From: Chrysemys picta bellii
Taxonomy: Eukaryota > Chordata > Testudines > Emydidae
NCBI RefSeq assembly: GCF_011386835.1
Contig: NC_088792.1
Location: 41,530,882-41,594,881 of the forward strand
Reading direction: 5' to 3'
Length of the DNA stretch: 64,000 nucleotides
The stretch's first letter is position 1. Each line of letters begins with the position of its first letter. Position numbers and translations under genes: made by a program. Below, one piece after another: positions 33,301 through 64,000 of the stretch. The notes beneath the pieces are model-generated. The model saw only the letters and a list, made by a program, of their open reading frames with translations. It had not been told where the DNA came from and did not search any database.

Positions 33301-36300
33301 CGTCATGAACCCTTCCCGCCCAGCCCGCGTTGATGTTGGTGAAACGTCCCTTGTGATCCACAAGTGCTTGCAGCACCATTGAAAAGTACCCCTTGCGGTT
33401 TATGTACTCGGTGGCTTGATGCTCCGGTGCCAAGATAGGGATATGGGTTCCGTCTATCGCCCCACCACAGTTAGGGAATCCCATTGCAGCAAAACCATCC
33501 ACTATAGCCTGCACATTTCCCAGAGTCACTAACTTTCGTAGCAGCACCTGAGTGATTGCTTTGGCTACTTGCATCACAGCAGCCCCCACAGTAGATTTGC
33601 CCACTCCAAATTGATTCCCGACTGACCGGTAGCTGTCTGGCATTGCAAGCTTCCACAGGGCTATCGCCACACGCTTCTCAACTGTGAGGGCTGCTCTCAT
33701 CTTGGTATTCTGGCGTTTCAGGGCAGGGGACAGCAAGTCACAAAGTTCCATGAAAGTGCCCTTACGCATGCGAAAGTTCCGCAGCCACTGGGAATCATCC
33801 CACACCTGCAACACTATGCGGTCCCACCAGTCTGTGCTTGTTTCCCTTGCCCAGAATTGGCGTTCCATGGATAGAATCTGCCCCATTAACAACATGATCT
33901 CCAAAGCACCGGGGCCCGTGGTTTCACAGAATTCTGTATCCGTGTCCGTGTCCATGTCCATGTCAATGTCCTCATCATGCTTGTCGCTGCGCTGCCGCCG
34001 CCGCTGCCTCCTCGCCTCGTTTTTCTGGTCCTGGCTGAGCATAAACTCCACGAGAACGCGCGAGGTGTTTACAATGTTCATGACTGCTGTCTTGAGCTCA
34101 GCGGGCTCCATGCTTGCCGTGGTATGGAGTCTGCAGTGTTCACCCACCCAGGAAAAAAGGCGCGAAAATGGTTGTCTGCCGTCCGTTGCTTTCATGCAGG
34201 GAGGGAGGGAGGGAGGAGGGAGGGAGGAGGTGAGGCTGTACCCAGAACCACCTGCGACGATGTTTTTTGTCCCATCAGGCACTGGGATCTTAACCCACAA
34301 TTCCAATGGGCGCGGGAGACTGCGGGAACTATGGGATAGCTATGGGATAGCTACCCACAGTGCAACGCTGCAGAAATCGACGCTAGCCCCGGTACTTGGA
34401 CGCACACCACCGAATTAATGTGCTTAGTGTGGCCGCATACATTTCAACTTTATACAACCTGTTTTTCAAATCCGAATTATATAAATTCGGATTAATCCCG
34501 TAGTGTAGACATACCCCTATATGCACACTGATATAGCTGAAAAGGGCAACCCTGATGGCTGAAGAAATTATATCTACTCCTCTTCATCAACTAGTTGATA
34601 ACTATTACTCAGGGGTGCAAAGGTGGGGTTGTAAAATGGTGTAAAATCAGAGGAAGTGTAGTCCACCTCTATAGAAGCACTCTATTTTACCTATGTCAAA
34701 GTCAGTTTATCATCTCCAGGCTGAGGTCAGGGCCTATTCTCACTTCCATGAGGTGGCAGACTAGTTTTGATGGTCCAACCTCAGACACGAATAGGCCCTG
34801 TTGGAAGCAGGTTGGTCTGAGGGGTAATGCTGACCTAGTGGGACATTAAAACTGTCTTTGATCCACATATATCAACCTATTAATCATCAAGGCTCCCTTC
34901 TCCCACATCTTCCTTCCAAATTGATATCCATGCCCATATAATATGAAGCAGCAGGGAAGGCCACTAGAACATGGGTGATGGAAGCCATTTTCCAGTTTGA
35001 ATGTATCATGGGATTCAGATTGCATATGCTCCTGTTTTACGATTGTGTGGCTGGGGCTGAAGATATGAAGTGATTCTTTTCTTCTATCATAGCCTCTGTG
35101 AAGACTGAACCACTGCACTTGTTTAGTGCAGTGACAGAGAGTGCTTCTATGGAACTGGGTATGAAAGTTTAGGAGGGAATGGGAAGGGAGTAAGAAAAGG
35201 CTCAGAAAAGATTACAAAAAAGATAAGCCAGAAAGGCAATGATTGTCTAACAACTAATATACTCACTGGAGAACCATCAATCCAGGTATATCCTTCATCA
35301 GGATTCAAGTAAATCAAACCCATCCAGAAATGCTGAAAGGTAAATCCTTTGTCCCTAAAATATAGTATATGATTAGATATGTGGTTGTATATAATAGGAC
35401 AATGATAAAACCCTTTATACAAAAGACGTTTTAGAACTTATAGCAGTTCAAAAATTTTGAAATCTCTATAAAATTATATCATAAAAGGAACCTGTAAAGG
35501 AAGAAAATGTGTTTATAACCATTTGCCTTTCTTCATGATGTACAATGATGTATTTCTCTCGGAAAAGTGTTTTCTCCTTGTTTTCTATCATAGATAAATT
35601 GGCCCATATTCCACTCTGTTTGTGCTACTCCAGTAGGAGAAAAACAGCCCCATCTCTCCAGAGGACATAGAACCAGCTCCTACCCTAAACCTGTCACAGT
35701 TTCCATGTGAGGGGTTTGGTCAAGGCATGCTGATCTCTGACAATTCTGAGTTGATAGACAATTCCTTGTTAACCATTACCAGCTGGTAGAGTTTAGAATA
35801 GCCACTAGCAGTCACCACAGAACTGACCCAATGATCAGAGTGTCATAATCAGCTCCTGCTGGTGCTTCCTGTCTACCACACCAAGTAGATCTTGACTGCA
35901 GCAGATCATCAGGCCCGCTAAGAATATAAATATTTATCATCCTTGTGTTTGATGGAGAACAACTTGAAGGACCAGAGAAGTGGGAGGGAGCTATCTCAGC
36001 CCTCTCTCAAAGTGGTGAGGGGTGCGGGCTTTTCTCAGAGATCTTTTCTCTCAACTGTATGTCAGGAGTTTGGGTTAAGAGATTTCAACAAAAATAAAGA
36101 ATTGTAAAACAATTTAACTAACTAAAAATCTTTTTCTCAATGCGTAGGTTTCACTTTCATGATACTCATTATTATTTCTAGTGCAGTAGCAGATACAGTC
36201 CCAGACTGAGATCAAGGACTCCTGTGCTCAGTATTGTATGAACACATCACAGGAAAGAGTTCCTGACCCAAAGATCTTATAGCCACACTAAGCCATAGAT

Positions 36301-51300: not shown

Positions 51301-54300
51301 CCTTCTCTTAGGTAAGCTAAACAGAGTGAGCTCCTTGAATCTATCACTATAAAGCATATTTTTTAATCCTTTAATCATTCTCATAGATCTTTTCTGAACC
51401 CTTTCCAATTTACCAACATCGTTCCTGAATTGTGGATACCAGGACTGGACACTGTATTCCTGCAGCAGTCACACCTGTGCAGAATTCAAAGGTAAAATAA
51501 CCTCTGTTCTGAGTCAAGATTCCTGTTTATTCATTATGCAGGTGGGGTCGCCCCAAAGGATTGCATCCAGCTTTTTGTAGAAACGGCAGGTCATGGGGGC
51601 AGTACCGGAGCGGTGGTTTGCCTCCCGCGCTTTGTGGTAGGCATTCCCCAGCTCCTTCACTTTAACCCTGCATGGCACTGCGTCCTGGTCATGGCCCCTT
51701 TCTCTCACGGACCTTGATATCTGCCCATAGGTATCGTAATACCTATGGCTGGAGCCAGCTGGGACTGGACAGCTTCCTCCCCCTCCCCAAACACTAATGA
51801 GGTCCAGCACCTCGCCATTGCTCCATACTGGGGATCGCCTGGCGTGTGGAGACATGGTCATCTGGAAAGATGTGCTGAGAGCACTCCATGCCTTGCTGAG
51901 CAAACAGGAAGGGGAATTTCAAAATTCCCAGAGAATTTAAAGGGAGGGTCTGACAGTTGGTTACCTGGGGGCAGGCTAATAGCGTTCAAAGTGATGACCA
52001 GAGTGGCTAGAACAGGCATTGTGGGACACTTCTGGAGGCCGATCAGAGCGCATTAACAGACCAGGGCATCCACACTGGCACCACGATGCTCCAGCTGGGG
52101 CGCAGCAAGCATTATGCTTCTCGTGGAGGTGGATTACCGGGGGTGCTCCAGCCACGAGTCCGGGTGATCTAAGTGCCTTGCCAGTGTGGACATCTCTGCA
52201 GTTAGGGTGTATGGGGCTGATTTAATGCGCTCTAGCTTGCAAGTGTAGCCAAGGCCTAAGTCAACACAAGGTGGCTTATGTTGACATAACTTTGTAGTGC
52301 AGACCTGGCCTAAGCTGCAGAGATGTGTCTGCAGAGACCCTGGAGCAATAGCTCTGAGTGCTGTGAACTGCCCCGTTCATTTCTGTGAGGTGTTAATGCA
52401 GATACCCAGTAATGATAATTTAAATGTCAACATTGTTGATTACTTCATTGTACATATCAAAAAGGGTGGAGAGGGAAGGATAGATCCACACAAGTTATTG
52501 TGAGTGATGTCTTATTTTGGTGCCACAAGTGGGTGGAGTTTGGAAGACAGATTCGCTTTTTTTCCTTTTTCTTTAATCAAAGAGCCAAGCCCAGTGAGCC
52601 CAGTGGAACCAATGGGTATATTCAAGACCTACTGAGAAGCCTAGCAGTTCACATGATCATATTTTGAAAGTCTGCACAATCTACTATGAGCAGCTGTTCA
52701 TTTGTCAATTTACATGGCCAGAGTTTATTTTGTGGAAGCAGCTTGGAAACCATCATGTTTCCCCCTGAATCATACCCTGTCACAAGCATTGGATTATTGA
52801 TTTCAGCAACAAATAAGCTACAAGAGCAGATGAACACATACAAATTACAATCAAGATTTCATGCAACTGGCCTTAGAAATAAAAAATAGCAAATATGTAA
52901 TAGACTATATAAGCAACAATGGGCTTGATTTCCACTGCATTATTCCAGTTACACTGTCATCAAAGGATGCAGTGGCCCCTGTTCTCTAAATAGAATGTGT
53001 TGAAGATTTTTGATGAAGCATCAGTTTTACTCCAACGGTGTATAATATTTAGAATATGTGAAGAAGATGCAATGCCTTTATTTCCTAAATATTTTGCTGC
53101 TTCTGGAAGCTTCAATTTATATTTCTCATTTTTGGATTACATTTTAAGGAAAAATTTGGATCAGATCTGTTTGGTGATTATTAACTCCAAATGATATTCA
53201 TTTCTATAGACAGTTCCATGTTTATAGTGATAAAAAATACTGGTGTTGAAATCTATAATGTGCATCAGAGAATTTTACTCTTAAAAATGATGGGGCAGAC
53301 CATCAGCTAGTGTAAATCAGTGACTTCAGTGGAGCTATACCACTTTACACCAGCAGAAGATCTATTTTGATTATTATAAACAGATTTACCTACCTGGAGC
53401 CCAGTTTAAATATCTGAGAGGACTGCTGCCCATCCACTGCCATCCACTGTTAAAATTCAAACTATTAAGTCCAATCCAGAAAGCAGAATCCATATTTTTA
53501 GTTATCTCTAAATTACAAAAGAAATTAAATGAAACTTTGAACCAAAATTTACATTTCTCAGACAAAGCCAGTTAATAAAAATATCACTTTTCCAATTAGT
53601 AAAATATATAGATGAGAATAGGAACACAATATACATGTGAGCATATATGTGTAAAGGTTACAGAGATTTCTGGCTAACAAAAGGAATAAATGAACTTTTC
53701 ATTTCAGCACAAACATAGCACATGAAAGATTCACTAGCTCTCTTCTGGTCTTGTTCCAAACTGGTGTTTATGAAGCCTCCTTCATGACTTTTATAAAGGA
53801 GCTTAAATTATTAACTCCATTGGTGTTATTGGAAGTTGACGCATGTAAAATCCACCCATATTAGGATGAGACTAACCACCTTCATGTATTCAGAAGTTAT
53901 ATATTGGAGTTATAAATAATCACTAAAGATTACAGGAAACATATTAATCTATGGATCAGATTATGGCTACTCCTGAACAGTGGTGGGAGGAAGCAGATGA
54001 TGTGGAGACAACCTTTGCACCAGGACTTGCTTCTTGTTTTTTCATGGCCAATGTCACTATGCTCCCCGAATGGGGAATGGCCAGTCTTCCTGTACTGCAG
54101 GCTAGTGGGTGGGGGGATGTGTTTTATCCTTTTAAAGGGTGTCATAAATGCTGCTGCCTCACTGAAAAGGTTTCCCAGACCATTGAGATGCATTTAGAAT
54201 TGACACAATAACAGAAAAATCACTGTGGGTGAAACCCTGGTCCCACAGACATCAATGCGAGTTTTTCCATTAACTTCAATGCAGCCAAGATGTCACCTTG

Positions 54301-57300
54301 AGTTTTCACTCTTGATTATTTTGTTAGTTTACCTCTCAGGTATGTTTGCTCCTGTATCTCTGTGATGCTTAATAATTCTGCATTCTGTTGCTGGCAGCTT
54401 TTCCTTGCTTGGTGCCATGTTAGAGCTGATTGGGAGTTTATCTGGTAGTGGAAACCTGTCAAAGAATCTGTAGTCCAAAATCTTTCAGTGTCACCTGGAA
54501 AGGGAAGAAAGATATGTAATATTAATTATGATTGACCCAAATAGACTCTGTTATGCAGTCTGTGCTTCTATGGAATGCAAAATCTGTCAGAGTCCATCAA
54601 TATATGATATTAATTGTAAAATACCATCAATTCTAAAGCAACAGCAACACTAAAATCAAACCAGGAGTTGAATTCTATTAGTGTATATTTTTGTATAGTC
54701 TTCTAAACTTCAGAATTTTTTTTTGCAGGGAGGGGGAGAGCTAGGGTTGGGTGGGTATTTTAAATGTGTTTTTGCTCACAAAATCTAAGATAGCCTTAAA
54801 CATAGGTGAAAGGGGAAGGGTGAGCATCAAGAGATGAGCTGTCACTCATGCTCACCCATGCCCACGGGCAATCACCTCTGACAGCAGAGGAATGGTGAAC
54901 TTCAGGGATCTTGAGTTCCATTTCAGGCTCTGAAGGTGTGTGTGCTCTAGATGGCACAGACTCCTATGTCCCCAATCTTGAACCCTCAACCTGCCCCAGT
55001 CCTACTGCTGACTCCCAGTCCCAAGCCCATTCTCCTCATCTAGTTAGTCCCAGTCTCTACTCCTCAGGCTACTGGTCCCAGTCCCAATTTCCTTCCTGTA
55101 CAAGTCCTAGTCTCCCACTCCAGACTCCCTCTACCAGTTTCTCCCAGTCCATGTCTCCCCCATCATGCTCCAAGTCTCCCTGCCTAGCTATTCCCAATTC
55201 CCTCCACCACTCCCTAATGTGTCCACCATCTCTCCCCAGTCTCCAATCACCTATCTCCCTGGCCATGCTCTCTGTCCCCACTGGCTCCCAGTGCCAGTCT
55301 CCTTCTCCAGACTCCTTGTTCTCCCCTCTCTTGGCTTCTTGTCTCAGTCTGTTTGCCCAGCCAATCCCAGTTATCCCCCATGCAACCTGGCTCCTCATTA
55401 GATCTGTATTCCCTCCCTGCACCTCCTCCCCCCTCCAACTGGTTCCAGTTGCCAGTTTCCTTGTCCTGTCAGTCCCACTTTCCCCTGGCTCCTCATTCAA
55501 TTTCAGTTCACCATCCACTATCTCCCTCTCCACCTGTTTCCTTCCCTGGCTCCCAGGCCTACCCTCACCCAGCCAATCCCATGTCTCAATCTATGCACTG
55601 ATCTTCCCCCACAGTCACTCTGTGTGGATGGTGCATGTGCAGTCTGGTCACATGTATGAATTGTGAGATGATGTTATGCTATGGGAATGGTGCATGAGCA
55701 GTCTGATCAGCTGTAAGAGCTGAGAGAGGATGGAGCATGCTCAGCTGATCGGTGGGGATGGCTCATGCACAGTTCAGTCAACACTAGCAGCTGTGAGAGG
55801 CCCAAATATGCTCTGTGAAGGCAGAATCTTCAGAGATTTTAGTTACTAAAATATACGTCGTCTCCACGGAATATGCGCCAACTGTGATTTTCCAAAGGCT
55901 TATAACTTGACCAAATTCAGACAGATTTCCACAGGAATGGCATAAGCCAGGTCCCTGACACAAAGGGTAGCCTCTGCCAATTATACAATCTCTTCCCCAA
56001 AGCATGGGGATGCTAGCACTTTCCAAAGCCATAGTCATCAGAATTTAACATTGAAAAACAACTTTATTTTCCCTAATCGCATTCTCAGAAGTGGCTGAAC
56101 CAAAAACATTCAGCCCGAGGAAGATATCCATGAAAAATTTCAGCCCAAACAATTAACAAATAAATAAATAAATAAATAATGGAGAGATCCCATCTCCTAG
56201 AACTGGAAGGGACCTTGAAAGGTCATCAAGTCCAGCCCCCTGCCTTCACTAGCAGGACCAAGTACTTGCCAATTAAAGTTTGGCAAAGTGATAAGCAACT
56301 AAAAGTATGGTCTTATAATGGAGAGTGTTGGGCAATCTTAATAATAGGTCAGCCTAACAGCTCAGCCTATAATATGACTTAAGATTTCTTATCTAACTAG
56401 TGAGTTTTGCCCCAATCCAGCCCCTGAAAGTGTTTAAAGTTGGGCACTCAAAACACAGAGGCACACAAAATCATGTCACTTTTAAAAATGTAGGTTCTTT
56501 CTATCTATGTGCACGCACACACACACTTTATATGTTTGGGTATGTCTGCACTGCAATCAAAGAAGTGATTGCAGCTCGGGCAGGCATACTTGTGTTAGCT
56601 TTCATCTAGCTAGCACAGCTAAAAATAGTAGTGAAGGCACAGTGGCATGGGCTTCTGCTCAGGCTGAACAAGCTTGCCTGGAACCCTAGGCATGTACTCG
56701 TGTTGCTAGTCTGTAATGAAGCCTGAGCGGCCACATCTTCACTGCTATTTTCACCAGTACTAGCTAGATTAAAGTTAGAATGGGTATGCCTACCTGAGCT
56801 GAATTCACACCTCCGATTGGAGTGTAGATGATAAAGGGATTCCCTTTATCGTCTACATCCATTCCTTCATCCATCATGTAAACACACTGACCAGATCAGA
56901 AATGAGAGTCCAGCTTAATGTCGGGGGAGGGGGTGGGGGGAAGAGGGAAGCAATTTCCTGCTCTTGTTGTCTCTTCCTCAAAGAGGGTAGAGACCTGGAT
57001 AATGCTGCCATGAAGAAATGGCTCCACAAAGCAACTGTCCTATGGGGGATCACTGCACAAGGGATGTAATTGCAAGGGAAAGCAGAGAAAGCTATTTACA
57101 CCTTCTTCCCCCATTGCACACCCATGCAGAGCCATCAATAAGCTGGCCACAACCATTTGCAAGTCATGACATTCAGAATTAAAGTTCCTGTCCTCTCTCT
57201 CCCTCTGTACCTGTTTCTGATATCCTGCTAGGCCCTGTGCCTTCCCCTGCCTCCTATGTGAATCTGCAACTTTCCCTGAGGCGGGTCCCACCCATCACAG

Positions 57301-57490
57301 CTATACGGTTAATAACAAAAAGAATAGCCAGACTCTACACCAAACAGAGTAGCAAAATGCCCAAGGAAAAGCATGAGGTGAAGACCTTTAATATCCAATT
57401 TTTACAGTAGACACACAATGGAGACTTACCCAGCAGCTGCAAAGTACTGTGAATGAGAGAGAGGAAAACAAGCATTGTGGAGAACGTCAT
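88..57490 (-). CDS. MRC1: Macrophage mannose receptor-like gene, 28 coding exons, lacking cysteine-rich and FNII exons
   Basis: The family is an endocytic, phagocytic type I membrane receptor of macrophages, dendritic cells and liver endothelium; it binds mannose, fucose and GlcNAc through CTLD4/5, sulfated sugars through its cysteine-rich domain and collagen through its FNII domain. The 28 exons read here have consensus splice sites and compatible phases, and total 3751 coding bases. That is 1250 codons with stop plus one extra base, in exon 3. Domain order is signal peptide (residues 1-20), eight CTLDs (about 30-1158), stalk, membrane segment (about 1180-1202) and a 46-47 residue tail. Human MRC1 is about 1456 residues in 30 exons; the missing 207 residues are mainly the cysteine-rich and FNII domains. 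The C-terminal QNEHTVI closely matches MRC1 and rules out the relatives MRC2, PLA2R1 and LY75. Birds and reptiles can carry several MRC1-like copies, so this may be a paralogue. The frameshift leaves coding status open. Confidence 0.9.
315..1301. other. Intron 27, no recognised feature
   Basis: I see no repeat family, exon-like frame or structured RNA here. Confidence 0.5.
1302..1343 (-). CDS. MRC1: MRC1-like exon 27: 42-base stalk exon
   Basis: A small phase 1 to phase 1 exon encoding [13 protein letters not shown], which resembles the IIDAKPTHELLTTK start of the MRC1 juxtamembrane stalk. The stalk is shorter than in mammals. Exon 26 could also splice straight to exon 28 in frame, so this exon may be optional. 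Confidence 0.75.
1878..2060 (+). mobile_element. Short retroposon, inverted dimer, with hammerhead-like core
   Basis: An inverted dimer of a short element: the left arm (to about 1933) is the reverse complement of part of the right arm (1934-2060). It is flanked by a perfect 12-base target duplication AAAGAATGGCCA (1866-1877 and 2061-2072). The right arm has CTGATGA (1942-1948), a GTGGG/CCCAC hairpin and GAAA (1966-1969). Lineage unknown; Penelope-like elements are a candidate. Confidence 0.75.
2815..2937. mobile_element. hAT-type MITE
   Basis: A 123-base element with terminal inverted repeats TAGGGTGACCAGA and TAGTGTGACCAGA, flanked by a perfect 8-base duplication GTCTCAGT (2807-2814, 2938-2945). 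The 8-base duplication and end sequence fit the hAT superfamily. It has no coding capacity. Confidence 0.85.
4476..4643 (-). CDS. MRC1: MRC1-like exon 26: CTLD8 end
   Basis: It encodes [40 protein letters not shown] and ICKKPK. Phase 1 to phase 1, 168 bases. No EPN or WND, as expected for CTLD8. Confidence 0.95.
4644..6195. other. Intron 25, no clear feature
   Basis: A weak 'aggcacctaaat' type decayed palindrome lies near 4940-5060, similar in style to the one at 38.7 kb. Nothing else is recognised; open frames around 5.4-5.9 kb have no family resemblance. Confidence 0.4.
6196..6312 (-). CDS. MRC1: MRC1-like exon 25: CTLD8, second part
   Basis: It encodes [20 protein letters not shown] and [11 protein letters not shown]. 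Phase 1 to phase 1, 117 bases. The usual WIGL core is WTGI here. Confidence 0.93.
6680..7205. repeat. GC-rich repeat with recurring TTTAAAGGGCC blocks
   Basis: It starts with a palindromic GGTCCGGTCCGG / CCGGACC segment (6712-6752) and continues as alternating direct and inverted units built on 'gatttaaagggcc..ggggctccc' and 'gagccccgggccctttaaa', about 60-100 bases apart. It looks like a non-autonomous DNA transposon with internal minisatellite; no target duplication was found. Confidence 0.55.
8622..9557 (-). pseudogene. CR1 reverse transcriptase fragment
   Basis: A 311-codon open stretch with the RT blocks [40 protein letters not shown] and [13 protein letters not shown]. The catalytic box reads FADN instead of FADD, so the second catalytic Asp is lost. 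The frame then breaks near 8622; the homologous continuation is at 8207-8392. The enzyme would copy CR1 RNA at a nicked target; this one is dead. Confidence 0.85.
9633..9790 (-). mobile_element. Short retroposon, inverted dimer, without hammerhead core
   Basis: Two inverted arms share 'aagtattgggagc' and 'gtcttaaaggtgccac'. The flanks repeat TTTTGTATCTCG (9621-9632 and about 9792-9803). Same family as the copies at 23.8 and 44.9 kb, but the junction lies downstream of the hammerhead-like part. Confidence 0.7.
9803..9994. mobile_element. Tc1/mariner-like MITE
   Basis: Inverted ends CTACCCCGATATAAC (left, from about 9806) and CTACCCCGATATAAC (right, reverse complement ending near 9992), flanked by TA-containing sequence. 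The body has the 'cgggagccaata..ttactg..gttatagg' core of this family. Inserted in the CR1 copy. Confidence 0.65.
10814..10963 (-). CDS. MRC1: MRC1-like exon 24: linker and CTLD8, first part
   Basis: It encodes [20 protein letters not shown] and [20 protein letters not shown]. Phase 1 to phase 1, 150 bases. Confidence 0.94.
11183..11500. mobile_element. Decayed AT-rich MITE
   Basis: An imperfect palindrome with ends 'tagagctgagcaaaa' and 'ttttcaaccaattcc', rich in AAAATTT blocks. It resembles the larger element at 61.06-61.78 kb. Confidence 0.4.
13035..13200 (-). CDS. MRC1: MRC1-like exon 23: CTLD7, second part
   Basis: It encodes [39 protein letters not shown] and VCKRSD, close to human CTLD7. 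Phase 0 start, phase 1 end, 166 bases. Confidence 0.94.
13431..15010. repeat. LTR-like repeat, split by a DNA transposon
   Basis: The left part (from about TGTAACCCTTCTGCC at 13431) has the look of a long terminal repeat, including AATAAAGC near 13615; the right part resumes at 14807 after the inserted element. I could not fix the right end or a target duplication. Confidence 0.3.
13903..14806. mobile_element. Tc1/mariner (Tigger-like) non-autonomous element
   Basis: Perfect inverted ends CAGTAACTCCTCACTTAA and TTAAGTGAGGAGTTACTG, flanked by TA at both sides. A further inverted match 'acgactttaagtga' lies inside. The 0.9 kb body holds a GC-rich filler (14.2-14.7 kb) whose open frames show no transposase motif. 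Confidence 0.8.
15186..15391 (-). CDS. MRC1: MRC1-like exon 22: CTLD7, first part
   Basis: It encodes [20 protein letters not shown], the EEARNNCKK helix and [10 protein letters not shown]. Phase 1 start, phase 0 end, 206 bases. Confidence 0.93.
16638..16934. mobile_element. MITE with Harbinger-like ends
   Basis: Ends AGGCCTTGTCTACACTACC and, in reverse complement, AGGCTTGTCGTCACTACTGG. The TGTCTACACTAC core matches the ends of the complete Harbinger at 30.1 kb, so it was probably moved by that kind of transposase. Confidence 0.6.
17645..17747 (-). CDS. MRC1: MRC1-like exon 21: CTLD6 end
   Basis: It encodes [20 protein letters not shown] and [14 protein letters not shown]. Phase 0 start, phase 1 end, 103 bases. 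Confidence 0.92.
17748..19163. other. Introns 19 and 20 around exon 20, no recognised feature
   Basis: Apart from exon 20 (18355-18536) I see only plain AT-rich intron sequence. Confidence 0.45.
18355..18536 (-). CDS. MRC1: MRC1-like exon 20: CTLD6, middle part
   Basis: It encodes [20 protein letters not shown] and [19 protein letters not shown]. Phase 1 start, phase 0 end, 182 bases, donor GTAAAC. Confidence 0.95.
19164..19278 (-). CDS. MRC1: MRC1-like exon 19: CTLD6, first part
   Basis: It encodes [20 protein letters not shown] and [18 protein letters not shown]. Phase 0 start, phase 1 end, 115 bases. Confidence 0.93.
19736..19937 (+). mobile_element. MIR-type (CORE) SINE
   Basis: It begins with a tRNA-like 'gtgatctaatggacagagcactggactgg', continues with the conserved 'gatgaccttaggcaaatca' core, 'gtttcccgacctgtaa', and ends in 'gcgctatataag'-like sequence. 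These are the diagnostic blocks of MIR, an ancient amniote SINE. Confidence 0.8.
19949..19973 (+). repeat. (CAT)n microsatellite
   Basis: About eight uninterrupted copies of CAT directly behind the MIR end. Confidence 0.9.
20050..20545. mobile_element. MITE with Harbinger-like TGTCTACAC ends
   Basis: Left end 'tatgtctacactt' and right end 'aagtgtagacaaag' are inverted. The middle (20.2-20.45 kb) is GC-rich with repeated 'ggaaaggctcc' blocks and long but meaningless open frames. Confidence 0.5.
21265..22445 (-). mobile_element. CR1 LINE, 3' half
   Basis: Antisense CR1 with its 3' end near 21265 ('gattctaagactgaaagggacctcgagag', a CR1 tail form) and the C-terminal half of the second ORF. It is 5' truncated near 22445, inside the RT domain. 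Confidence 0.9.
21349..22320 (-). pseudogene. CR1 reverse transcriptase C-terminal half
   Basis: A 323-codon open stretch with [20 protein letters not shown], an intact FADD catalytic box ([11 protein letters not shown]), the [19 protein letters not shown] block and the CR1 C-terminal [16 protein letters not shown]. Just upstream (about 22400) the first catalytic motif reads YLVF instead of YLDF, and a stop follows, so the enzyme is inactive. Confidence 0.85.
22956..23098 (-). CDS. MRC1: MRC1-like exon 18: CTLD5 end, linker and start of CTLD6
   Basis: It encodes [19 protein letters not shown] (the WND Ca2+ ligand pair), a Ser-rich linker with an N-glycosylation sequon, and [13 protein letters not shown], the start of CTLD6. 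Phase 1 start, phase 0 end, 143 bases. Confidence 0.94.
23203..23396 (+). mobile_element. tRNA-derived SINE with CR1-type tail, copy A
   Basis: Starts 'gggatagctcagtggtttga' (A box) with a B box-like 'gttgtgaattcagtcc', then the CR1-like tail 'gacctttcaaggtcccttcc'. This is the common turtle pol III SINE. It ends in 'ctaggagataca' rather than the ATTCTATGAT form. Confidence 0.85.
23397..23588 (+). mobile_element. tRNA-derived SINE with CR1-type tail, copy B
   Basis: Directly behind copy A, same orientation: 'ggatagctcagtggtttgag', 'gttgtgagttcaatcc', and a tail ending ATTCTATGATTCTATGA, the CR1 3' octamer repeat. That tail shows reliance on CR1 machinery. Confidence 0.88.
23693..23793 (-). 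CDS. MRC1: MRC1-like exon 17: CTLD5 EPN loop
   Basis: It encodes [20 protein letters not shown] and [16 protein letters not shown] and the Glu of DENC are kept, so CTLD5 still looks able to bind Ca2+ and mannose. Phase 2 start, phase 1 end, 101 bases. Confidence 0.95.
23814..23939 (+). mobile_element. Short retroposon, single copy, with hammerhead-like core
   Basis: Starts TGCGTCTGAGGAAG and ends 'cagctacccctctgat', flanked by AGTATGAC (23805-23812 and 23940-23947). CTGAGGA (23819-23825), a GTGGG/CCCAT hairpin and GAAA (23843-23846) lie at the start. Confidence 0.75.
24089..24121 (+). repeat. (ATT)n microsatellite
   Basis: About ten copies of ATT. Confidence 0.9.
25020..25087 (-). CDS. MRC1: MRC1-like exon 16: CTLD5, second part
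   Basis: A 68-base exon encoding [22 protein letters not shown]. Phase 0 start, phase 2 end, and the split codon joins exon 17 as KFSWLDG. Confidence 0.92.
25872..26035 (-). CDS. MRC1: MRC1-like exon 15: CTLD5, first part
   Basis: It encodes [17 protein letters not shown] and [10 protein letters not shown]. As in other MRC1 proteins, CTLD5 lacks the extra N-terminal cysteine pair. Phase 1 start, phase 0 end, 164 bases. Confidence 0.94.
26132..26167 (-). CDS. MRC1: MRC1-like exon 14: 36-base linker between CTLD4 and CTLD5
   Basis: This small phase 1 to phase 1 exon encodes [11 protein letters not shown], matching the Pro-rich CTLD4-CTLD5 linker of MRC1. Both splice sites are good and it is needed to keep the chain continuous. 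Confidence 0.85.
26900..27055. mobile_element. hAT-type MITE
   Basis: Inverted ends CAGTGCTTAATTTGTA, identical over 16 bases, with related 8-base flanks ATTGTAAG and GTTATAAG (two differences). 156 bases, no coding capacity. Sequence just upstream (26.7-26.9 kb) may be an old L2-like LINE end. Confidence 0.8.
27064..29753. other. Intron 13, mostly without recognised feature
   Basis: No family recognised apart from two G-rich tandem 'actggggggaggggg' / 'actggggagggg' blocks at about 28926-28976. Confidence 0.4.
29754..29898 (-). CDS. MRC1: MRC1-like exon 13: CTLD4 sugar-binding loop
   Basis: It encodes [20 protein letters not shown] and later [18 protein letters not shown]. The Ca2+/mannose ligands of the family are all present: EPN, the Glu before His-Cys, and Asn-Asp of WND. 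The residue two after EPN, a Tyr in human MRC1 that stacks on the sugar ring, is Asp here. Phase 0 start, phase 1 end, 145 bases. Confidence 0.95.
30457..30973 (+). CDS. Harbinger Myb/trihelix-like protein, exon 1
   Basis: From the first ATG (30457) it encodes [18 protein letters not shown], an [20 protein letters not shown] helix and [19 protein letters not shown]: the trihelix/MADF-type domain of Harbinger second proteins, which in characterised elements binds the ends and helps bring the transposase into the nucleus. A Glu-rich stretch (EEEEDELAE) follows. The exon ends in phase 1 at CAG|GTGAGT. The frame is open with no lesion. Confidence 0.85.
31517..31715 (+). repeat. G-rich tandem duplication in the Harbinger intron
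   Basis: A unit of about 115 bases occurs twice (from 31517 and from 31632), each with 'ccagccacgcggtgggggga', 'atcatcccagagaattcatg' and a long G run ending 'tggttagtttg'. The G runs could form quadruplexes. Confidence 0.8.
32040..32542 (+). CDS. Harbinger Myb/trihelix-like protein, exon 2
   Basis: After the acceptor CCCTACAG (phase 1, matching exon 1) it encodes [17 protein letters not shown], a basic [12 protein letters not shown], and a charged repeat of RRDQREE-like heptads (about 32217-32310) likely to form a coiled coil, ending LPIPPQ-stop. With exon 1 the protein is 339 residues and intact. An AATAAA at 32657-32662 would end the transcript. Confidence 0.8.
32798..34195 (-). pseudogene. 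Harbinger DDE transposase, one in-frame stop
   Basis: From the ATG at 34193-34195 it encodes an acidic stretch ([15 protein letters not shown]), a helix-turn-helix ([14 protein letters not shown]) and the DDE catalytic domain: [10 protein letters not shown] (first Asp), ILGDPAYPL (second Asp) and [12 protein letters not shown] (Glu), with [16 protein letters not shown] between. A TAA at 33017-33019 interrupts the frame after RSDLS. The same frame goes on with [19 protein letters not shown] and 70-odd residues typical of the family C-terminus. The catalytic triad lies before the stop. A polyadenylation signal (minus AATAAA) is at 32691-32696. Confidence 0.88.
34198..34232 (+). repeat. (GGGA)n simple repeat
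   Basis: A run of GGGA/GGAG units just upstream of the transposase ATG. Confidence 0.85.
35267..35354 (-). CDS. MRC1: MRC1-like exon 12: CTLD4, middle part
   Basis: It encodes [19 protein letters not shown] and TWIDGSP, the WIGL-type core strand of CTLD4. Phase 2 start, phase 0 end, 88 bases. Its 5.4 kb downstream intron carries the Harbinger element. Confidence 0.94.
35355..37203. other. Intron 11, no recognised feature
   Basis: Apart from an A-run (36828-36844) I see nothing identifiable. Confidence 0.45.
37204..37331 (-). CDS. MRC1: MRC1-like exon 11: CTLD4, first part
   Basis: It encodes [18 protein letters not shown] and [16 protein letters not shown] of the main sugar-binding domain. 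Phase 0 start, phase 2 end, 128 bases. Confidence 0.94.
38400..38599 (-). CDS. MRC1: MRC1-like exon 10: CTLD3 end, linker and start of CTLD4
   Basis: It encodes [19 protein letters not shown], then [15 protein letters not shown], a Pro/Thr linker and [16 protein letters not shown], the start of CTLD4. Phase 1 start, phase 0 end, 200 bases. The acceptor pyrimidine tract is weak (TTTCATGAAG). Confidence 0.95.
38745..38972. mobile_element. Palindromic MITE
   Basis: Long inverted ends: 'gggtccagatttttaaaggt' on the left against 'agacccaggtttttaaaagt' read in reverse complement from the right, plus inner 'aagggatttaggcac' / 'gtgcctaaatccctt'. The whole element is nearly one palindrome. Confidence 0.7.
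39208..39396 (-). mobile_element. tRNA-derived SINE with CR1-type tail, copy C
   Basis: Reverse orientation of the SINE at 23.4 kb: tail 'atagaatcatagaat' first, A box 'ccactgagctatccctcc' last. Full length. Confidence 0.88.
39713..39861 (-). CDS. MRC1: MRC1-like exon 9: CTLD3, middle part
   Basis: It encodes [19 protein letters not shown] and THWNSAMPG, very close to MRC1 CTLD3. Phase 2 start, phase 1 end, 149 bases. Confidence 0.95.
40309..41067 (+). repeat. Possible LTR, unresolved family
   Basis: Starts TGATGGGC and ends CCTGTTACA, with a TATA box (CCATATAAAAA, about 40455) followed by a conserved-looking 'cagtcagttgctgcctggag'. It looks like a solo LTR, but I found no matching target duplication, so the ends are uncertain. 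Confidence 0.35.
42104..42219 (-). CDS. MRC1: MRC1-like exon 8: CTLD3, first part
   Basis: It encodes [16 protein letters not shown] and the loop to [10 protein letters not shown]. Phase 0 start, phase 2 end, 116 bases. An N-glycosylation sequon (NKT) is visible. Confidence 0.94.
42220..43434. other. Intron 7, no recognised feature
   Basis: Nothing beyond ordinary intron sequence. Confidence 0.45.
43435..43548 (-). CDS. MRC1: MRC1-like exon 7: CTLD2 end and linker to CTLD3
   Basis: It encodes [19 protein letters not shown], the closing part of CTLD2, then a proline-rich linker and PGCQR, the first Cys of CTLD3. Phase 0 at both ends, 114 bases. Confidence 0.94.
44360..44462 (-). mobile_element. 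MIR-like SINE fragment
   Basis: In reverse it reads as the tRNA-related MIR head: 'attaagcatggaccagg', 'atcctggttctgac' and a 'gtggtctaatgg'-type start. Short and diverged. Confidence 0.45.
44870..45092 (+). mobile_element. Short retroposon, inverted dimer with two hammerhead-like cores
   Basis: Two arms of about 93 bases are almost perfect reverse complements around a short centre (about 44963-44971). The right arm continues to a tail 'cagattcagactaac..ctctgat'. A perfect 13-base duplication AGTAATCATGAAT (44857-44869, 45093-45105) flanks the whole unit. CTGAAGA is at 44976-44982 and GAAA at 45001-45004, with the mirror copies at 44951-44957 and 44929-44932. Confidence 0.82.
45745..46563. 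mobile_element. hAT-type non-autonomous element
   Basis: Ends CAGGGGTTCTCA and CAGCGTTTCTCA (reverse complement of the right end) fit hAT-Charlie elements. Flanks GCCTAGGG and TGCTAGGG differ at two of eight bases. The 0.8 kb body contains a short inverted repeat at 46060-46128 and no transposase frame. Confidence 0.7.
46788..46850 (+). mobile_element. tRNA-like remnant, probably SINE head
   Basis: An A box-like 'taagctcaactgattgaga' and a B box 'ggttccaatcc' at tRNA spacing. There is no clean acceptor stem, so it is read as a SINE remnant and not a tRNA gene. Confidence 0.35.
47530..47742 (+). mobile_element. CR1-type LINE 3' end
   Basis: Plus-strand 3' end of a CR1 subfamily: 'ggaacaatttacacagggtc', 'ggaggtcagacgagatgatc' and a terminal short repeat 'atctatagatctatga'. 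Confidence 0.8.
47765..47919 (-). CDS. MRC1: MRC1-like exon 6: CTLD2, middle part
   Basis: It encodes [19 protein letters not shown] followed by [20 protein letters not shown] and DCVVMKGQ, almost the human CTLD2 sequence. Phase 1 start, phase 0 end, 155 bases. QPS replaces the EPN-type sugar motif, as is usual for CTLD2. Confidence 0.95.
47920..49189. other. Intron 5, little recognised
   Basis: A decayed palindromic repeat with 'ttaagcacatg' / 'catgtgcttaa'-type ends lies at about 48727-48850. Nothing else. Confidence 0.4.
49190..49372 (-). CDS. MRC1: MRC1-like exon 5: CTLD2, first part
   Basis: It encodes [19 protein letters not shown], the CTLD N-terminal Cys and WHxC-type pattern, through FIVSQLGY. 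Phase 1 to phase 1, 183 bases, donor GTAAGT. Confidence 0.95.
49373..50641. other. Intron 4, no recognised feature
   Basis: No repeat or exon recognised. Confidence 0.4.
50642..50788 (-). CDS. MRC1: MRC1-like exon 4: CTLD1 end and linker to CTLD2
   Basis: It encodes [39 protein letters not shown] and a Ser/Thr-rich linker. Phase 1 to phase 1, 147 bases. CTLD1 has no EPN or WND, as in other MRC1 proteins, so it is not expected to bind Ca2+-dependent sugar. Confidence 0.95.
50954..51504 (-). mobile_element. CR1 LINE, 3' fragment
   Basis: Antisense CR1: the 3' end at 50954 ('gattctgaggccaaaaggga') and the last part of the second ORF ([30 protein letters not shown]). It ends abruptly at the Harbinger remnant near 51505. 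Same subfamily type as the fragment at 47.5 kb. Confidence 0.8.
51505..52256 (-). mobile_element. Remnant of a second Harbinger family
   Basis: One end is visible near 52256, reading in reverse complement GGCCTTGGCTACACTTGC, different from the 30.1 kb element. It carries a Myb-like gene start and is truncated at 51505, where the CR1 begins. Confidence 0.65.
51514..51861 (-). pseudogene. Harbinger Myb/trihelix-like protein fragment
   Basis: From the ATG at 51861 it encodes [40 protein letters not shown] and [16 protein letters not shown], the same domain as at 30457 but clearly diverged. It ends where the element is cut; no exon 2 or transposase is found. Confidence 0.75.
53394..53508 (-). 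CDS. MRC1: MRC1-like exon 3: CTLD1, middle part, frameshifted
   Basis: The exon encodes [14 protein letters not shown] and, after a frame change, [19 protein letters not shown], both clearly MRC1 CTLD1. It is 115 bases long, although both ends need phase 1 and the length should be a multiple of 3. One extra T in a four-T run (53459-53462 region) shifts the frame and gives a TAA at 53450-53452. Splice sites look normal. Confidence 0.88.
54333..54494 (-). CDS. MRC1: MRC1-like exon 2: CTLD1, first part
   Basis: The exon encodes [19 protein letters not shown] and [13 protein letters not shown], nearly identical to MRC1 CTLD1. Both ends are phase 1, so it joins exon 1 directly as LLG-DTERFW without disturbing the frame. 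In other MRC1 genes this exon follows the FNII exon, which is not found here. Confidence 0.95.
54940..55615 (+). repeat. Degenerate pyrimidine-rich tandem repeat
   Basis: Loose repeats of 'cccagtctcc' / 'ctggctcc' motifs. The long Ser/Pro-rich frame running through it is a by-product of composition. Confidence 0.6.
56161..56180 (+). repeat. (AAAT)n microsatellite
   Basis: Five copies of TAAA next to the SINE tail. Confidence 0.85.
56181..56268 (-). mobile_element. tRNA-SINE / CR1 tail fragment
   Basis: Only the tail portion remains: 'aactggaagggaccttgaaa' and 'cctgccttcactagcaggacc', matching copy A at 23.2 kb in reverse. Confidence 0.75.
56538..56840. mobile_element. MITE with TGTCTGCACT ends
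   Basis: Left end 'ggtatgtctgcactgcaatc'; right end 'gattggagtgtagatg' is its rough inverse. Internal 'tagctagattaaag' and 'tcatctagctagcac' are also inverted. Related in style to the Harbinger MITEs. Confidence 0.5.
57430..57490 (-). CDS. MRC1: MRC1-like exon 1: start codon and signal peptide
   Basis: Twenty codons plus one base encode a hydrophobic leader ([20 protein letters not shown]) like the MRC1 signal peptide. The ATG at 57488-57490 has a good context (GCCATGA). The open frame extends upstream to 57601, but without another ATG, so this start is chosen. The exon ends in phase 1 at a consensus donor GTAAGT. Confidence 0.85.
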
Positions 57491-57670
57491 GGCAAATGTT
57501 TCATTCCTTTCTTCCTTTCCACTAAGTGATGAATGGTAATTAGTTGCTGTCAATAAAATCCTTCTGTAAGGAACCGTCTGGCAGGTCCTACTATGTTTCA
57601 AAGGGCTGACAGATCAGGGGAAAGCTCTGGGCTCTAAATAAGGAACTATCCTGTCACATGTGACATTTTG
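57491..57670 (-). promoter_or_regulatory. Putative promoter and 5' UTR of the MRC1-like gene
   Basis: Upstream of the ATG the minus strand holds a TATA-like TTATTTAG (57634-57641) next to an AGTTCCTTA stretch whose complement AAGGAACT has a GGAA core of PU.1/ETS type. An E-box CACATGTG lies at 57655-57662. Mammalian MRC1 promoters are known to use PU.1 and USF (E-box) sites. The start site is inferred, not seen. Confidence 0.4.
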
Positions 57671-60600
57671 AAATAGCAGGAATTAACAGAGCAAACTTTG
57701 CTTTTGTAAGTGAATCGCTCTTTACTGAGGGCAAAGTCTCTTTCCATAGAAATGCAGGTGATAAACAAAGTGGTTACAATTCAGTGCAGTTTCCTGAGAC
57801 AATGTTGGGTCAGTTGTTGGGTTTCCAGTCCAATGAAATCGCTAAAAGATATTAGGGAGCTAACAGTGTCAAGCCTGCAGCAGAACACAGATAAAAGCTC
57901 AGCCGCTACATTTAAACAGTATACCTCAGATAGATAGTGAGACAACACTTCCAGTATTCCAGTAAAATTGGTAGCAGCTCACATTTCCACCTGTCTGGAA
58001 GGTAAGGAATTAACTTTACAGCGTTATTCAGTTAAAATCACCCTGCAGGACAAGCAGAATTTTAATTCTGAAAACAAAGATTGGTGAATTAGGATGGTCA
58101 GATGTGCCAGCCTCAGCATACACATTTTGGGTATCTGGCCAAAAGGGATCTCAGAAACAGTGCACTTCAAAGGTAATTTCTAGCTTTCCTGTGTAGGGAC
58201 TAGACAACTGTCATACACCACTTCCAAGGGCCTTCTTCAAGAAAGGTCATGACATTTATCTAAATACCTGCAGTGAGAATATTCAACAGTTCTGTACATT
58301 ATATTGTTGAACTGGTGAACATTACCACCACATTTCCTGGTGGTAGAGGGAGAAAGGGTGAGACTGACTGTACAGGCCAATCCCATTCCCATAGTACATG
58401 TATGAAGACTGGACTTTGTACCAGAATACTTTGTCAGACAAAACTACAGTCTTGTCTACACAGTGCAATTTACTAACATTGCATTTCTAGTATAAGCATA
58501 TTAAACTAAATCGGAAAAAGGAACTATTCTTCAAGAATTAGTGTCCACCTGGGGTGTTATATAATGATACTGGCATAGCTATGTCAGTTAATTTCTCCAT
58601 CTAGACAAACCCCACCAGTTTCTTTCCTTTCACTGAAGTTAAGAGAAGTTGGGACATGAAATTATAAAACATGTGTGAGGTGAAATAACCATCTCAAGCA
58701 CAATAATATATTTATTCAAAATCTGAAGGGAAGCTGTGACAGCAGGAAAACTCATCAATCTCTGCTATTATTACAATGGAGATGCCTAAATACAAGAATT
58801 AGTCAACCTGCCTGATTTGGCTACACAGCAGAAATCTCAAAGGGAAAGGCAGATCCTTAAGCAAGTCTGCAAGACCAAAATAAAAAAGAGGAATTGAATG
58901 AATTGCTGAATAAGAAAATTCTATAGAAGCTTAATATACAGATAGTAGGAAATTAAGGACAAAGCTGGCAGAATTTTGCCTTTTGAAATTGTGACAAAAA
59001 TAGCTAACAGCAACAAAAGCAAAGCAAATATAATCCTTCCCCTCAACAATATCACCAGTATTCTCTAGAATATCTGTTTTGGCCAAGATTTTTCATTTTC
59101 TGTTGTTAATTTTGCCTGAAGAGAACAAATGCTTTTTTTTTTTCCTTTGCTTCAATCAGTACCTTTGTATTTATTAAGATGGAGGCTCATGGAATTGCGG
59201 CATGACAGCATCCCCAAAACCACATGGTTGGTTTTTTTTAAATCACACATTGTCATTGGTATTAATTATTACTTCTTAATATTTACATTGTGGCAACACC
59301 TACAGGCTTTAATCAGGTTGAGCCCCATTGTGCAAGGAACACCTGGGAATACTTTTAAAATATATATTCCAAGTGTGTACAAGGCATTTCTATTCTACTG
59401 AATGGCTATACCACTGAAAAGGAATATGCTCTGTAGGGTCTTATTGATGTTTCTATCTCTACTCATTGCTACACACCACAGACTCTTAGTAATATTCAGT
59501 GGTATAAATTAAAGTTTGTCTTCTAAAGCAAGGAACATAGACTACAAAGTCAATGTGTAATTTAAAGCAAAGACTAGTTTGGCTCATGGACACCCTGAAA
59601 ATGTTCCTGCATGAAATACATATAATCCTGAATCTCACCATTTAAGACATTTTAAAACTGAAGAGGGAGTTGTAATGTTTTTTTCATTTTTTAATGTTAA
59701 TTAGTCCCATTTGAAACCATGTAAACCATTTAAACCACTAGTTCCCTAAAACTGCTTGTAAACTACAATAATAACTCTTCCTATCTGAATAAATTGCTTT
59801 GTATCTGCTACCATCACAGCAGCATCCTGCAGTACCAGTCCTGACCACTCAGACATGCATTAGCCCCAGGACACACGTCATCAGCAAGATTATCCCATTT
59901 ACTTCATTGGACTGATGCAAGTCCCACCAGATCATCTACCAGCTCAACAAGAATTTACTGGTTGCATATTTGTTGACTGTGTCACTTTTTAATGGCACCA
60001 CAGTAACATTATGATAAAATTCTTGTATGACATAGGTAAGCTGGTAATCGTTGATTTTAATGTTAGGTGACTGATTGAAGGAAATAAATTACATTACTAT
60101 TAATAGTAGAATTATTAAACATTTATATTGTGTAGCATCTAAATGCCACAACCAGGCTGGGCTCCATTATGCTAGATAAGATATTGCAGGTAGATGAGCC
60201 AGCCAGAGTGAGGTGAAAGAACAAGGTAAAAAAATCAATACAGGAATAGGATGTGCACAATTCCTTAGCTGGTCATGTCATGATCATAGCTCTCCACCTG
60301 CCTAGCCACATTTGGCTCCTGTGTACCAGGAAAGGGAATTGTTATGAGGGCAGGAGACTCCATGCCAAAAGGATGCCAGTCCCCTGCCCTAATTTTAAAG
60401 GATTTATTAACCTTGCTTAACTGACAGTTTTGAATTAGCTCAAACATTAAACAAAGACCAGTCTATTCTATATGTGTTCTTATACTGCCCCCTTCACTGT
60501 AGTATCCGAGCACCTTCCAACAGCACATTCAACAACTGTCACATGTAGTTCATTCCCTCTCGTCCTCTCCCCAAGGGAAGAATTTTGTTTGTAGGGTTTT

Positions 60601-60680
60601 GTTTTGGTACTGGGTTTATTGTTTTATATTAGAGAAGGTCAAAGAAGTGCACTCTGTACTTCGAGCAGAAGGTGGAGAGG
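57671..60680. other. Upstream flank, no recognised feature
   Basis: About 3 kb of ordinary AT-rich sequence. No exon-like conserved frame and no clear repeat family. Confidence 0.4.
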
Positions 60681-60689
60681 TTTGTGATG

Positions 60690-61055
60690 GTCCTTACTTC
60701 CTGGCGCGGGGGAGGGGGAGGGCGGAAAGAGGGGAGAGTTCCTTCCATAGTCTTGGACTGGCTGACAAGAAAGTTGTGTCTCCTGCCCAGCTGAGCTTTA
60801 AACCCTTATTGTAGGAAGTTCCATTGTCTGAGGAATGGAATTGTCCACTATGGTCTTTATCCTGGAGCTTTAGGTGATCTTCAAATATGCAGGGGCCTAG
60901 GCCACTGAGTACCTTGAAGATAAGAACCTTGAACTTGACATGATAGTCTAAGGGAAGCCAGTGAAGAGAGTGGAGGGCAGGTTTGACGTGCTCTTGGTAG
61001 CACCCATTGCTGAGAAGACATGCTGCATAGTTCTGTATGGAGTTGAGTTTAAATT
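60690..61055 (-). mobile_element. Old LINE fragment (L2-like), first part
   Basis: An open minus frame contains HSLHWLPLDYHVKFKVLIFK and later LWKELSPL, the C-terminal pattern of L2-like reverse transcriptases. It is 5' truncated and old. A related stretch resumes at 61790. Confidence 0.6.
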
Positions 61056-61775
61056 GGAATTTCCATCGAGAATAAAATTCCAATATTTCAACATCTTTAT
61101 TTCTTAAAAGTTCTGAACTGAAATTTTTCAGAAATGGCAAAACATTTTCATTTTGGCATTTTTGATTGAAATGAAAACTTCTGGTGTTCCCAAATTAAAA
61201 TGTTTGATTTTGGATTGTTGAAATGACTCAAAACATTTTATTGAGAGGCATTTCAACATTTAACTGGATCTAGCTATGATGGCACATTGCCTCATGGGTG
61301 TTGTAGTTCAGTTGCCTGATGCCCTAATTCTCCTCTTTAGGCTAAGCTTCCTGACTGGACTACATCTCCCATGATGCACCTACAGTGACACCTACAAAGA
61401 ACCAGGCCATTCAATCAGGGGGGAAATTGCATCACATCATGGGAAATGTAGTCTGGCCAGGTAGCCCTGTCCATAGAAGAGAGTGGGAGCATCAGGAATC
61501 CAAACAAGTCCCATGAAGGAATGTGCCACCACACTGGCGGGGGCGGGAAGGTTGATCTTGAACTGACTTGAAAGAAAATATTTCAGGTCAGTTTAACAAA
61601 CCAAATATTTCAATTCAGGTCAAACCAAGCTGAAATTAAATATTGTTTTGTTTTTCCTGAACAAAAATAGAAAAATAACAAAATCAAAAATTAAAATTAA
61701 AATTTTGATTTTGTGGAAACTGCATTTTGTGTTGAAAATTAATTGAGATAGAAAATTCCCAACCAGGTCTAGTTC
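61056..61775. mobile_element. AT-rich palindromic MITE inserted in the LINE fragment
   Basis: The ends are long inverted AAAATTTT-type blocks. The centre has 'actacatctcccatgatgc' against 'gcatcacatcatgggaaatg', another inverted pair. It separates two pieces of the L2-like element. Confidence 0.5.
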
Positions 61776-61959
61776 TGTACTAGTTGGAGTTTCTTAAAAG
61801 CTGATGGCTTCACAGCCAATTATATTACATTGCTGTAGTCCAAATGGGAGATGACAAAGATGTGTGTAACTAAGGGCAGGTCATCATCTGCCAAGATGGG
61901 TGGATCCTCCTAGCTAATTAGATATAGAAGAGTGTTAATAACAGGCATTGTTATGAGAA

Positions 61960-62165
61960 AGCTTAGGGCAAATTTACAGTACAGTGCTACACTGGCACAT
62001 CTGCAATGTGCACGTCTGGTGAAGATGCGCTATGATGATGAGAAAGCACTCTCCCATCGGTATAATTACTTCACCCCAGCAAGAAGAGGAAGCTATTTTG
62101 TAGGAGAGCGTCTCCCACTGACATTACACCAGTGTGGACAGCGTGAAACTTGCATCACTCCGGGG
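61960..62165. mobile_element. MITE fragment
   Basis: Contains 'gctacactggcacatctgc' and 'tctcccactgacattacacc', typical of turtle MITEs with internal inverted repeats. Ends not fixed. Confidence 0.4.
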
Positions 62166-62423
62166 GTTGGGGAGTGGGGATTTCTAAGACTGAAAACATA
62201 TACATTTAGTTGATAGGAAAGAAACAACAGCTAAGGAAATAATTCTTCATCCTTTAAATAATTTTGTAAAAAAGCAGAACTCAACAAAAATAGTAAATGC
62301 TGGAACTAAAAAAAAAAAGAACATCTGTTTCCTATAGAAACACACGCTGGCAAAACTGTTTCTAGAGAGCTAAGAAAAACAAATACATTAAAGCTCAAAT
62401 ATTGAGGATCAGCCATCGATCTA

Positions 62424-62610
62424 AGGCCTTGTCTACACAAACAGTTAATTGGTGGCAACTGGTTAGTAAATCTATGCTGCACCCAAAACAGAAGTAGATC
62501 AAAGCACACTAAGGAGCTTCTAGTGCACGACAGCATGGTCAAAACGGACAGTTGGAGTACGGCAGACTAGTGCGGGGTAGCTTTACATCCCAGCTTGCTA
62601 CGCTGTTAAC
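62424..62610. mobile_element. MITE fragment with Harbinger-like end
   Basis: Starts 'aaggccttgtctacacaaac', the same end type as 16638. The other end is not clear. Confidence 0.45.
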
Positions 62611-62662
62611 TTTCTGGAAGGGAGGACAAAGAGGTGAAACTTTTTTTTAAAAAATTTATGGT

Positions 62663-63452
62663 TGTCACAGATCCACAGGATTGGTGCTAAGCGCTCAGCT
62701 TTGAAAGTCTCTGGGAGAATCCCCTCTAGTGTGCCAGACCCAAAGGATCTCACTCTTCCTGCACAGGGTAGGCCACGTGATCACACCAGACAGCATCTGG
62801 GGTTTCAGCACTCCTGTCACACATTGTGAGCTCTGTTCAGTGAGTCCAACTGAGACAGACTTCGGGTAAAGATGCATACACTCTTCTGGAATTAACACAC
62901 CTCACCAAGCGTTTGTATCGTCAAAACAGAGTTTATTAGTCCAGGGCAACACAGCATAGGAAGTCCTTAGGTTAGCACAGAGAAAAGAAGGATAAAGCAT
63001 AGTCCATTCTGGTTAGCCAGAGCTCCAGCCAAGCTGTTGTGAACCCTATTGTTCAGGCTCTTGTCTCTCTGAGGGCTGGTTTACACGGAAAACTTAGGGT
63101 CTGTCTACACCTAAAATGGTACAGCTGTGCTGCTGTAGTGTTTCAGTGTAGACACTACCTATGCTGATGAGAGGGGTTCTCCTGTTGTTAATCCACCTCC
63201 CTGACAGGCAGTAGCTAGGTCAACAGGGATTAGGTTGGATTAACCACATCACTTAGAGGTGAGGATTTTTCACTCTGATGAACAATATAGTTGGATCAAT
63301 CTAATTTTTTAGTATAGGCCAGGCCTTAGCCTGCCCTGAGTGCAAACAGTGCTTTCCCCCCATCCCCACTGAATAGCCATGTGAAATACAGGGGAAACTG
63401 AGACACATATAGGCTTCATAAAAATATTACAAAAAATTCCCATTTCGTCACA
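62663..63452 (-). mobile_element. Solo LTR, old LTR retroelement
   Basis: On the minus strand it starts TGTGACGAAATGGG and ends CTGTGACA (TG...CA), with a perfect 5-base duplication ATGGT at 62658-62662 and 63453-63457. An AATAAA is visible on the minus strand near 62932. Interrupted by a MITE at 63091-63330. No internal coding region is present. Superfamily not decided. Confidence 0.8.
63091..63330. mobile_element. MITE nested in the solo LTR
   Basis: Starts 'agggtctgtctacacctaaa' and ends 'agtataggccaggcctta'; the LTR sequence is continuous across it. Confidence 0.55.
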
Positions 63453-64000
63453 ATGGTTTCCCCCCTCACCTCCCCACACACTTTCTCCTCCTCCCTTCCC
63501 CCACAATTTCAGCAACAAAATGGGAAAAGGGAAAATTGAGGGAGAGGAAAAAAGGGAGATGAAGGTGAAATAACTAAAAACTGAAAACAAAATTCATTTT
63601 GGATTTTGGAGATTTTTGTAAATATCAGAAAAAAAATTCAAATATATTTTCCAACAACACTCTTAAAATAAAAGACCAAAAACAGTTTTAGTTTTGAATA
63701 AAAAATTTCAACAAGCTATTAACAGAATTTGTTCTCCCGGTCTTAAAATGAGCACAAAAGGAGCCATGCCAACTCAAGTTAGCTAACTTCCGACATCACT
63801 ATGGAAGAGCTGTAGGTGGGTTCAGGGCTGTATTGTGTGTGGGATTGCCATGGTTAATTTCCTGGTGGACTCTGAGGATAGTTCCATCTAGGCAGGGTCT
63901 CTTCTAACTATAAAGACACAGCCTAGAGTCCCTCCCCATAGCCCTGCAGCTCTCCCGCTTAGGAGAATGACTCAGCTGCTCAGGGTCCCAGGCAGGAATC
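63453..64000. other. Window end, no recognised feature
   Basis: Contains an AT-rich decayed repeat (63590-63720). Nothing further. Confidence 0.4.

Follow-up and report, generated by a model that had tools for sequence, protein, structure and literature searches.

The 64,000-nucleotide stretch of DNA analysed here, referred to as the window (C2:41530882-41594881 of its assembly), contains an intact mannose receptor gene on its minus strand, and it was confirmed that this gene is without recognisable CysR or FNII exons. Almost certainly, it is the turtle counterpart (orthologue) of MRC1L-D, which occupies fourth place in a tandem array of five mannose receptor genes common to turtles and birds. 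That this gene lacks the two domains was already published in 2014, and the trait is ancient and inherited; it did not arise by a fresh deletion.

Gene structure and search for the missing exons

The gene comprises 28 exons extending from position 57490 down to position 88, with 1257 codons and a single stop at its end. All splice sites of the model are canonical (GT at 27/27 donors, AG at 27/27 acceptors). The model was derived from a spliced alignment of human MRC1 on the minus strand and corrected by hand against the Malaclemys orthologue P0001, with which the exon 20 donor and the exon 28 acceptor were set by comparison. A first exon at 57604-57592 was discarded as an artefact, the query having begun at residue 205, and 57490-57430 was used instead. 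This exon 1 (61 nt, ATG at 57490) encodes the signal peptide and ends in phase 1; the exon 1-CTLD1 junction is shared by the turtle orthologue proteins. Intron 1 (54495-57429, 2935 bp) is the site at which the paralogues harbour the CysR and FNII exons, neither of which was matched above chance. Exon 2 (54333-54494, phase 1 at both ends) contains the start of CTLD1 and corresponds to exon 4 of the 30-exon MRC1, thirty being the exon number that the available text of PMC4229073 gives for the mannose receptor family. Exons 2-13 (29754-54494) encode CTLD1 to CTLD4, the end of the latter lying at 29898-29754 with the EPN..E..ND motif. CTLD5 to CTLD7 are encoded by exons 14-23 (13035-26167; exon 20 at 18536-18355) and CTLD8 by exons 24-26 (4476-10963). 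Exon 27 (1302-1343) is a short juxtamembrane linker, and exon 28 (88-314) contains the transmembrane segment and the cytoplasmic tail with FNNV (FxxZ), all of these exons being on the minus strand. The original prediction of 28 MRC1 exons in the proper order was borne out by this open model, and so was its statement that exon 1 ends and exon 2 begins in phase 1, the short form being in frame without any internal stop.

The product of the window gene aligns without gaps to the 1257 residues of Malaclemys P0001 (1240/1257 identical, 98.6%), and its full-length identity is 93.2% to Pangshura and 84.7% to Pelusios, all three proteins having the same architecture. In the Malaclemys and Pelusios proteins, Pfam (E up to 0.001) identified eight Lectin_C stretches, but neither FN2 nor a CysR family. 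Eight CTLDs, the conserved exon structure, a transmembrane segment and a short tail, which are hallmarks of the mannose receptor family, are present in the window gene, while the N-terminal CysR followed by FNII is missing; the gene is a domain-reduced mannose receptor relative by descent. Mammalian MRC1/CD206 and MRC1L-A have the same exon order, phases and eight CTLDs, but differ from it by their own CysR, FNII and both tail endocytosis motifs. That the gene is a decaying pseudogene, as the missing domains and the absence of both classic tail endocytosis motifs might suggest, is extremely unlikely in view of the complete frame, the 54/54 canonical splice sites, the 84.7% identity to Pelusios and the retained CTLD4 motif.

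A tblastn search of the whole window with residues 1-210 of human MRC1 did not yield any match at E values up to 10. On both strands of the region 54495-64000, the best tblastn scores were 22.7 bits for CysR (60 queries) and 21.9 bits for FNII (74 queries), values within the range of 50 Markov-1 shuffled versions of this region (median best score 23.9 and maximum 30.0 for CysR, 21.2 and 25.0 for FNII). The top CysR match (57131-57069), obtained with several queries, is located in intron 1 on the correct strand and comprises 21 columns with one stop. Since its 22.7 bits are below the shuffled median of 23.9, it was not counted as a relic. When the three minus-strand reading frames of 54495-64000 were scanned with Pfam, no family was detected at E up to 10. 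Hence, the predicted absence of both exons between the signal exon and CTLD1 withstood the tblastn search that had been proposed as a check on it, as well as the Pfam analysis.

Neither the window nor the surrounding 144 kb of the chromosome contains a single N. Within these 144 kb, which span genes C and D as well as the 5' portion of E, only four matches were strong, namely the CysR and FNII exons of C and those of E; the runner-up scores were 26.6 bits (CysR) and 24.6 bits (FNII), the shuffled control referring to 54495-64000 only. For CysR, absence refers to tblastn matches in the 144 kb and in the remaining array loci. Nothing was found to favour an assembly or annotation artefact, and it is next to impossible that real exons are missing from the assembly for such a reason, because the stretch is free of N and the predicted proteins of three other turtle species concur, as does the chicken cDNA in the available text of PMC4229073. 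The possibility that the signal exon is a false first exon, with CysR and FNII exons lying further upstream, was also rejected. Nothing convincing was found upstream as far as gene C, since the N-free 7.8 kb between the end of the gene C match (41596189) and the start of the window gene (41588371) gave no convincing CysR or FNII match, and turtle orthologues begin with the same exon 1. Alternatively, the CysR and FNII exons of gene C might be spliced into D through read-through transcripts. As D retains a signal exon and its turtle orthologues have an identical start, this is very unlikely, even though the two genes lie on the same strand about 7.8 kb apart, their phase 1 junctions are compatible and PMC4229073, in its available text, leaves inter-gene splicing possible.

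Position in the tandem array and assignment to MRC1L-D

When the whole genome was searched for FN2, with 150 of 151 candidates scored, minus-strand matches on C2 were obtained at 41812794 (A), 41715498 (B), 41642717 (C) and 41517376 (E), and the list contained none for the window gene, which lies between C and E. This gene is the fourth of five same-strand paralogues arranged side by side. Tblastn with turtle paralogues located a signal exon, a CysR exon and an FNII exon in each of the other four genes, all with GT/AG sites and an open frame. Thus, the paralogue count suggested along with the original prediction came to five genes, and the window gene is the only one of them without CysR and FNII exons, both being kept in the other four. 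It is therefore not "the" MRC1 gene, as had been assumed, but the D member of an array whose neighbouring genes carry both exons. Exon 1 of all four other genes has 61 nt and ends in phase 1. Their CysR exon has 402 nt, and their FNII exon measures 183 nt in B and 174 nt in the other three. Since both exons are in phase 1 at either end, each can be removed with the frame kept. Exon 1 and CTLD1 are separated by 2935 bp in the window gene, compared to about 4809 bp in B, 10176 bp in C and 9689 bp in E, and this shorter span fits a net deletion.

For tree construction, the best 120 of 1081 matches were used, of which 101 entered the protein set and 19 did not. After 11 further proteins (fusions, isoforms, fragments) had been dropped, 90 proteins plus the window gene product made up a 91-row FastTree; 46 of these rows, including 19 of the 29 D rows, were selected for a quick IQ-TREE analysis. 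The window row had 1248 amino acids, nine residues fewer than the final model. In both trees, which were based on the CTLD part, the window product grouped with turtle D proteins, with bird D as the sister group (SH-type support 100). Assignment to clade A or B, which the human-MRC1-like tail might suggest, was ruled out by tree and synteny. No crocodilian protein was found in the D clade among the treed rows (best 120 of 1081 and best 120 of 1421 matches).

In the description by Staines et al. 2014 (PMC4229073), the five genes follow one another as A, B, C, D and E along the transcribed direction, as they do in the array of the window gene. According to the available text of this paper, all five chicken genes except MRC1L-D have CysR and FNII exons, transcripts having been amplified from cDNA, and in the building of a tree of birds, painted turtle, lizard, Xenopus and mammals, gene D is given as lacking these exons. 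Chicken MRC1L-D likewise lies between C and E and has eight CTLDs, no CysR or FNII exons and a (Y/F)xxZ tail; the turtle tail differs in that Y is replaced by F, a feature that the paper mentions for the painted turtle. Because position, clade, domain loss and tail all agree with this description, as far as its available text goes, the window gene is identified as the known MRC1L-D. Beyond PMC4229073, no title or abstract on the domain structure of MRC1L-D was found among those listed. A further report (PMC7433353, available text) describes upregulation of MRC1L-D in infected chicken lung.

Domain loss across the D clade

Domain presence was scored for each protein by alignment coverage, and the counts refer to predicted proteins apart from the chicken cDNA described in the available text of PMC4229073. 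Among the matches listed, the D clade of the 91-row tree comprises 29 rows, six from turtles (the window included, two of them short) and 23 from birds. All six turtle rows are without CysR and FNII. CysR occurs in 0/23 bird rows and FNII in 15/23, the eight FNII-less rows including three short predictions (P0029, P0043, P0084). Within the 19 D rows of the 46-row tree, FNII is present in 10/15 birds and absent from the remaining five as well as from 4/4 turtle rows. Parsimony on this tree requires one change for CysR over all 46 rows, placed on the stem of the turtle and bird D clade, and four changes for FNII within D. Eight bird D FNII sequences are at least 86% identical to one another and at most 79% identical to 13 non-D sequences; being closer to each other than to non-D domains, they appear to be native to D. 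The D gene of ostrich, ducks, hawk, owl, hummingbird and passerines (P0010, P0012, P0058, P0008, P0040, P0022, P0013, others) belongs to the same clade as the window gene and is equally without CysR, but differs from it by an FNII retained in the predicted proteins. One of these proteins, zebra finch D (P0013), has FNII contrary to the general wording in the available text of PMC4229073. It is probable that the N-terminus was eroded stepwise, with CysR lost once before the split of turtles and birds and FNII lost later and independently in turtles, gamebirds, woodpecker/barbet and perhaps curlew.

A Crocodylus protein with CysR but without FNII (P0090) was considered as a D intermediate and rejected, as both trees place it with gene C on a long branch. 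In P0090 (Crocodylus porosus), a gene-C-like protein, FNII is absent from the annotation, and therefore this domain may have gone from another paralogue too. Two Chelonoidis fragments of clades E and B have neither domain; they are short predictions and absent from the 46-row tree.

The original prediction attributed the missing exons to a deletion accompanied by repeat insertion. Such a recent, lineage-specific event is highly improbable: intron 1 is indeed smaller than the exon 1-CTLD1 span of B, C and E and contains some interspersed repeat, but Malaclemys, Pangshura and the side-necked turtle Pelusios (suborder Pleurodira) have the same predicted protein form without CysR and FNII, which refutes the deletion as recent, and parsimony places the CysR absence on the stem of turtle and bird D. 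As the absence of both domains is common to turtles, the repeats now present in the intron say little about its origin. Blastn of intron 1 against the 144 kb matched only one repeat, an interspersed element at 56174-56336 (no strand assigned) with copies elsewhere in this stretch. A short AAAT run and an imperfect inverted repeat of 92 nt are also found in the intron.

Other introns of the gene contain open frames of mobile elements. The frames at 30391-30990 (plus strand, Myb/SANT-like DNA-binding protein) and 33020-34339 (minus strand, DDE_Tnp_4 transposase) presumably make up a DNA transposon of the Harbinger type, with its layout of two genes. The G+C content is 0.51 at 30-34 kb versus about 0.40 in most of the window. 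Elsewhere in the window, a further Myb/SANT-like frame is located at 51517-51918 (minus strand). Reverse-transcriptase frames (PF00078) at 8625-9695 and 21352-22320, both on the minus strand, probably derive from fragmentary LINEs of the CR1 kind.

Lectin sites, cytoplasmic tail and possible function

In line with the original prediction that the lectin domains were kept, all six CTLD4 motif residues (EPN, E, ND) are intact in the window gene; the same applies to all 14 D sequences examined. For CTLD5, the motif residues are intact in three of the 14 (window, Malaclemys, Pangshura), and the other 11 show one substitution each. From work on mammalian MRC1, we take the EPN/E/ND residues to be the Ca2+ and sugar ligands. 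As aligned, the one turtle C protein checked (P0025) has lost the CTLD4 sugar motif (RLRK, GK), and in the one E protein checked (P0039) the motif is altered, with IN for ND. Since the CTLD4 motif is kept in D and gone or altered in C and E, D may exceed these full-length neighbours in mannose competence.

The tail contains FNNV and is devoid of both motifs of A and B: in the aromatic-xNxxY motif it is the tyrosine that is replaced, in the (DE)xxxLZ motif the leucine (motif definitions from the available text of PMC4229073). This text also assigns FxxZ to the turtle D tail and describes D tails as quite different from those of A and B. Against this view, the tail of the window gene is still recognisably similar to that of human MRC1, with 42% identity over 66 columns of the last exon.

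In mammalian MRC1, CysR plays a role in the binding of sulfated glycans and FNII in the binding of collagen. By analogy, the binding of both ligands would have been lost together with CysR and FNII, as the original prediction had proposed. Judging from its sequence, MRC1L-D may be a lectin-only surface receptor of macrophage-type cells with a changed tail. It would bind mannose-type sugars via CTLD4, whose motif residues are kept, and perhaps via CTLD5, and internalisation, if any, would proceed via the FxxZ-type tail signal and not via the two classic MRC1 signals.

The patchy retention of FNII among bird D proteins is a small new lead. If the stepwise erosion is true, a D receptor with FNII plus lectin domains persists in ostrich, ducks, hawk, owl, hummingbird and passerines, which would correct the published generalisation that D is without both domains. 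With a receptor that has been devoid of CysR since before the divergence of turtles and birds and has kept its mannose-type motif intact, nature provides a test of the role of the N-terminal module.
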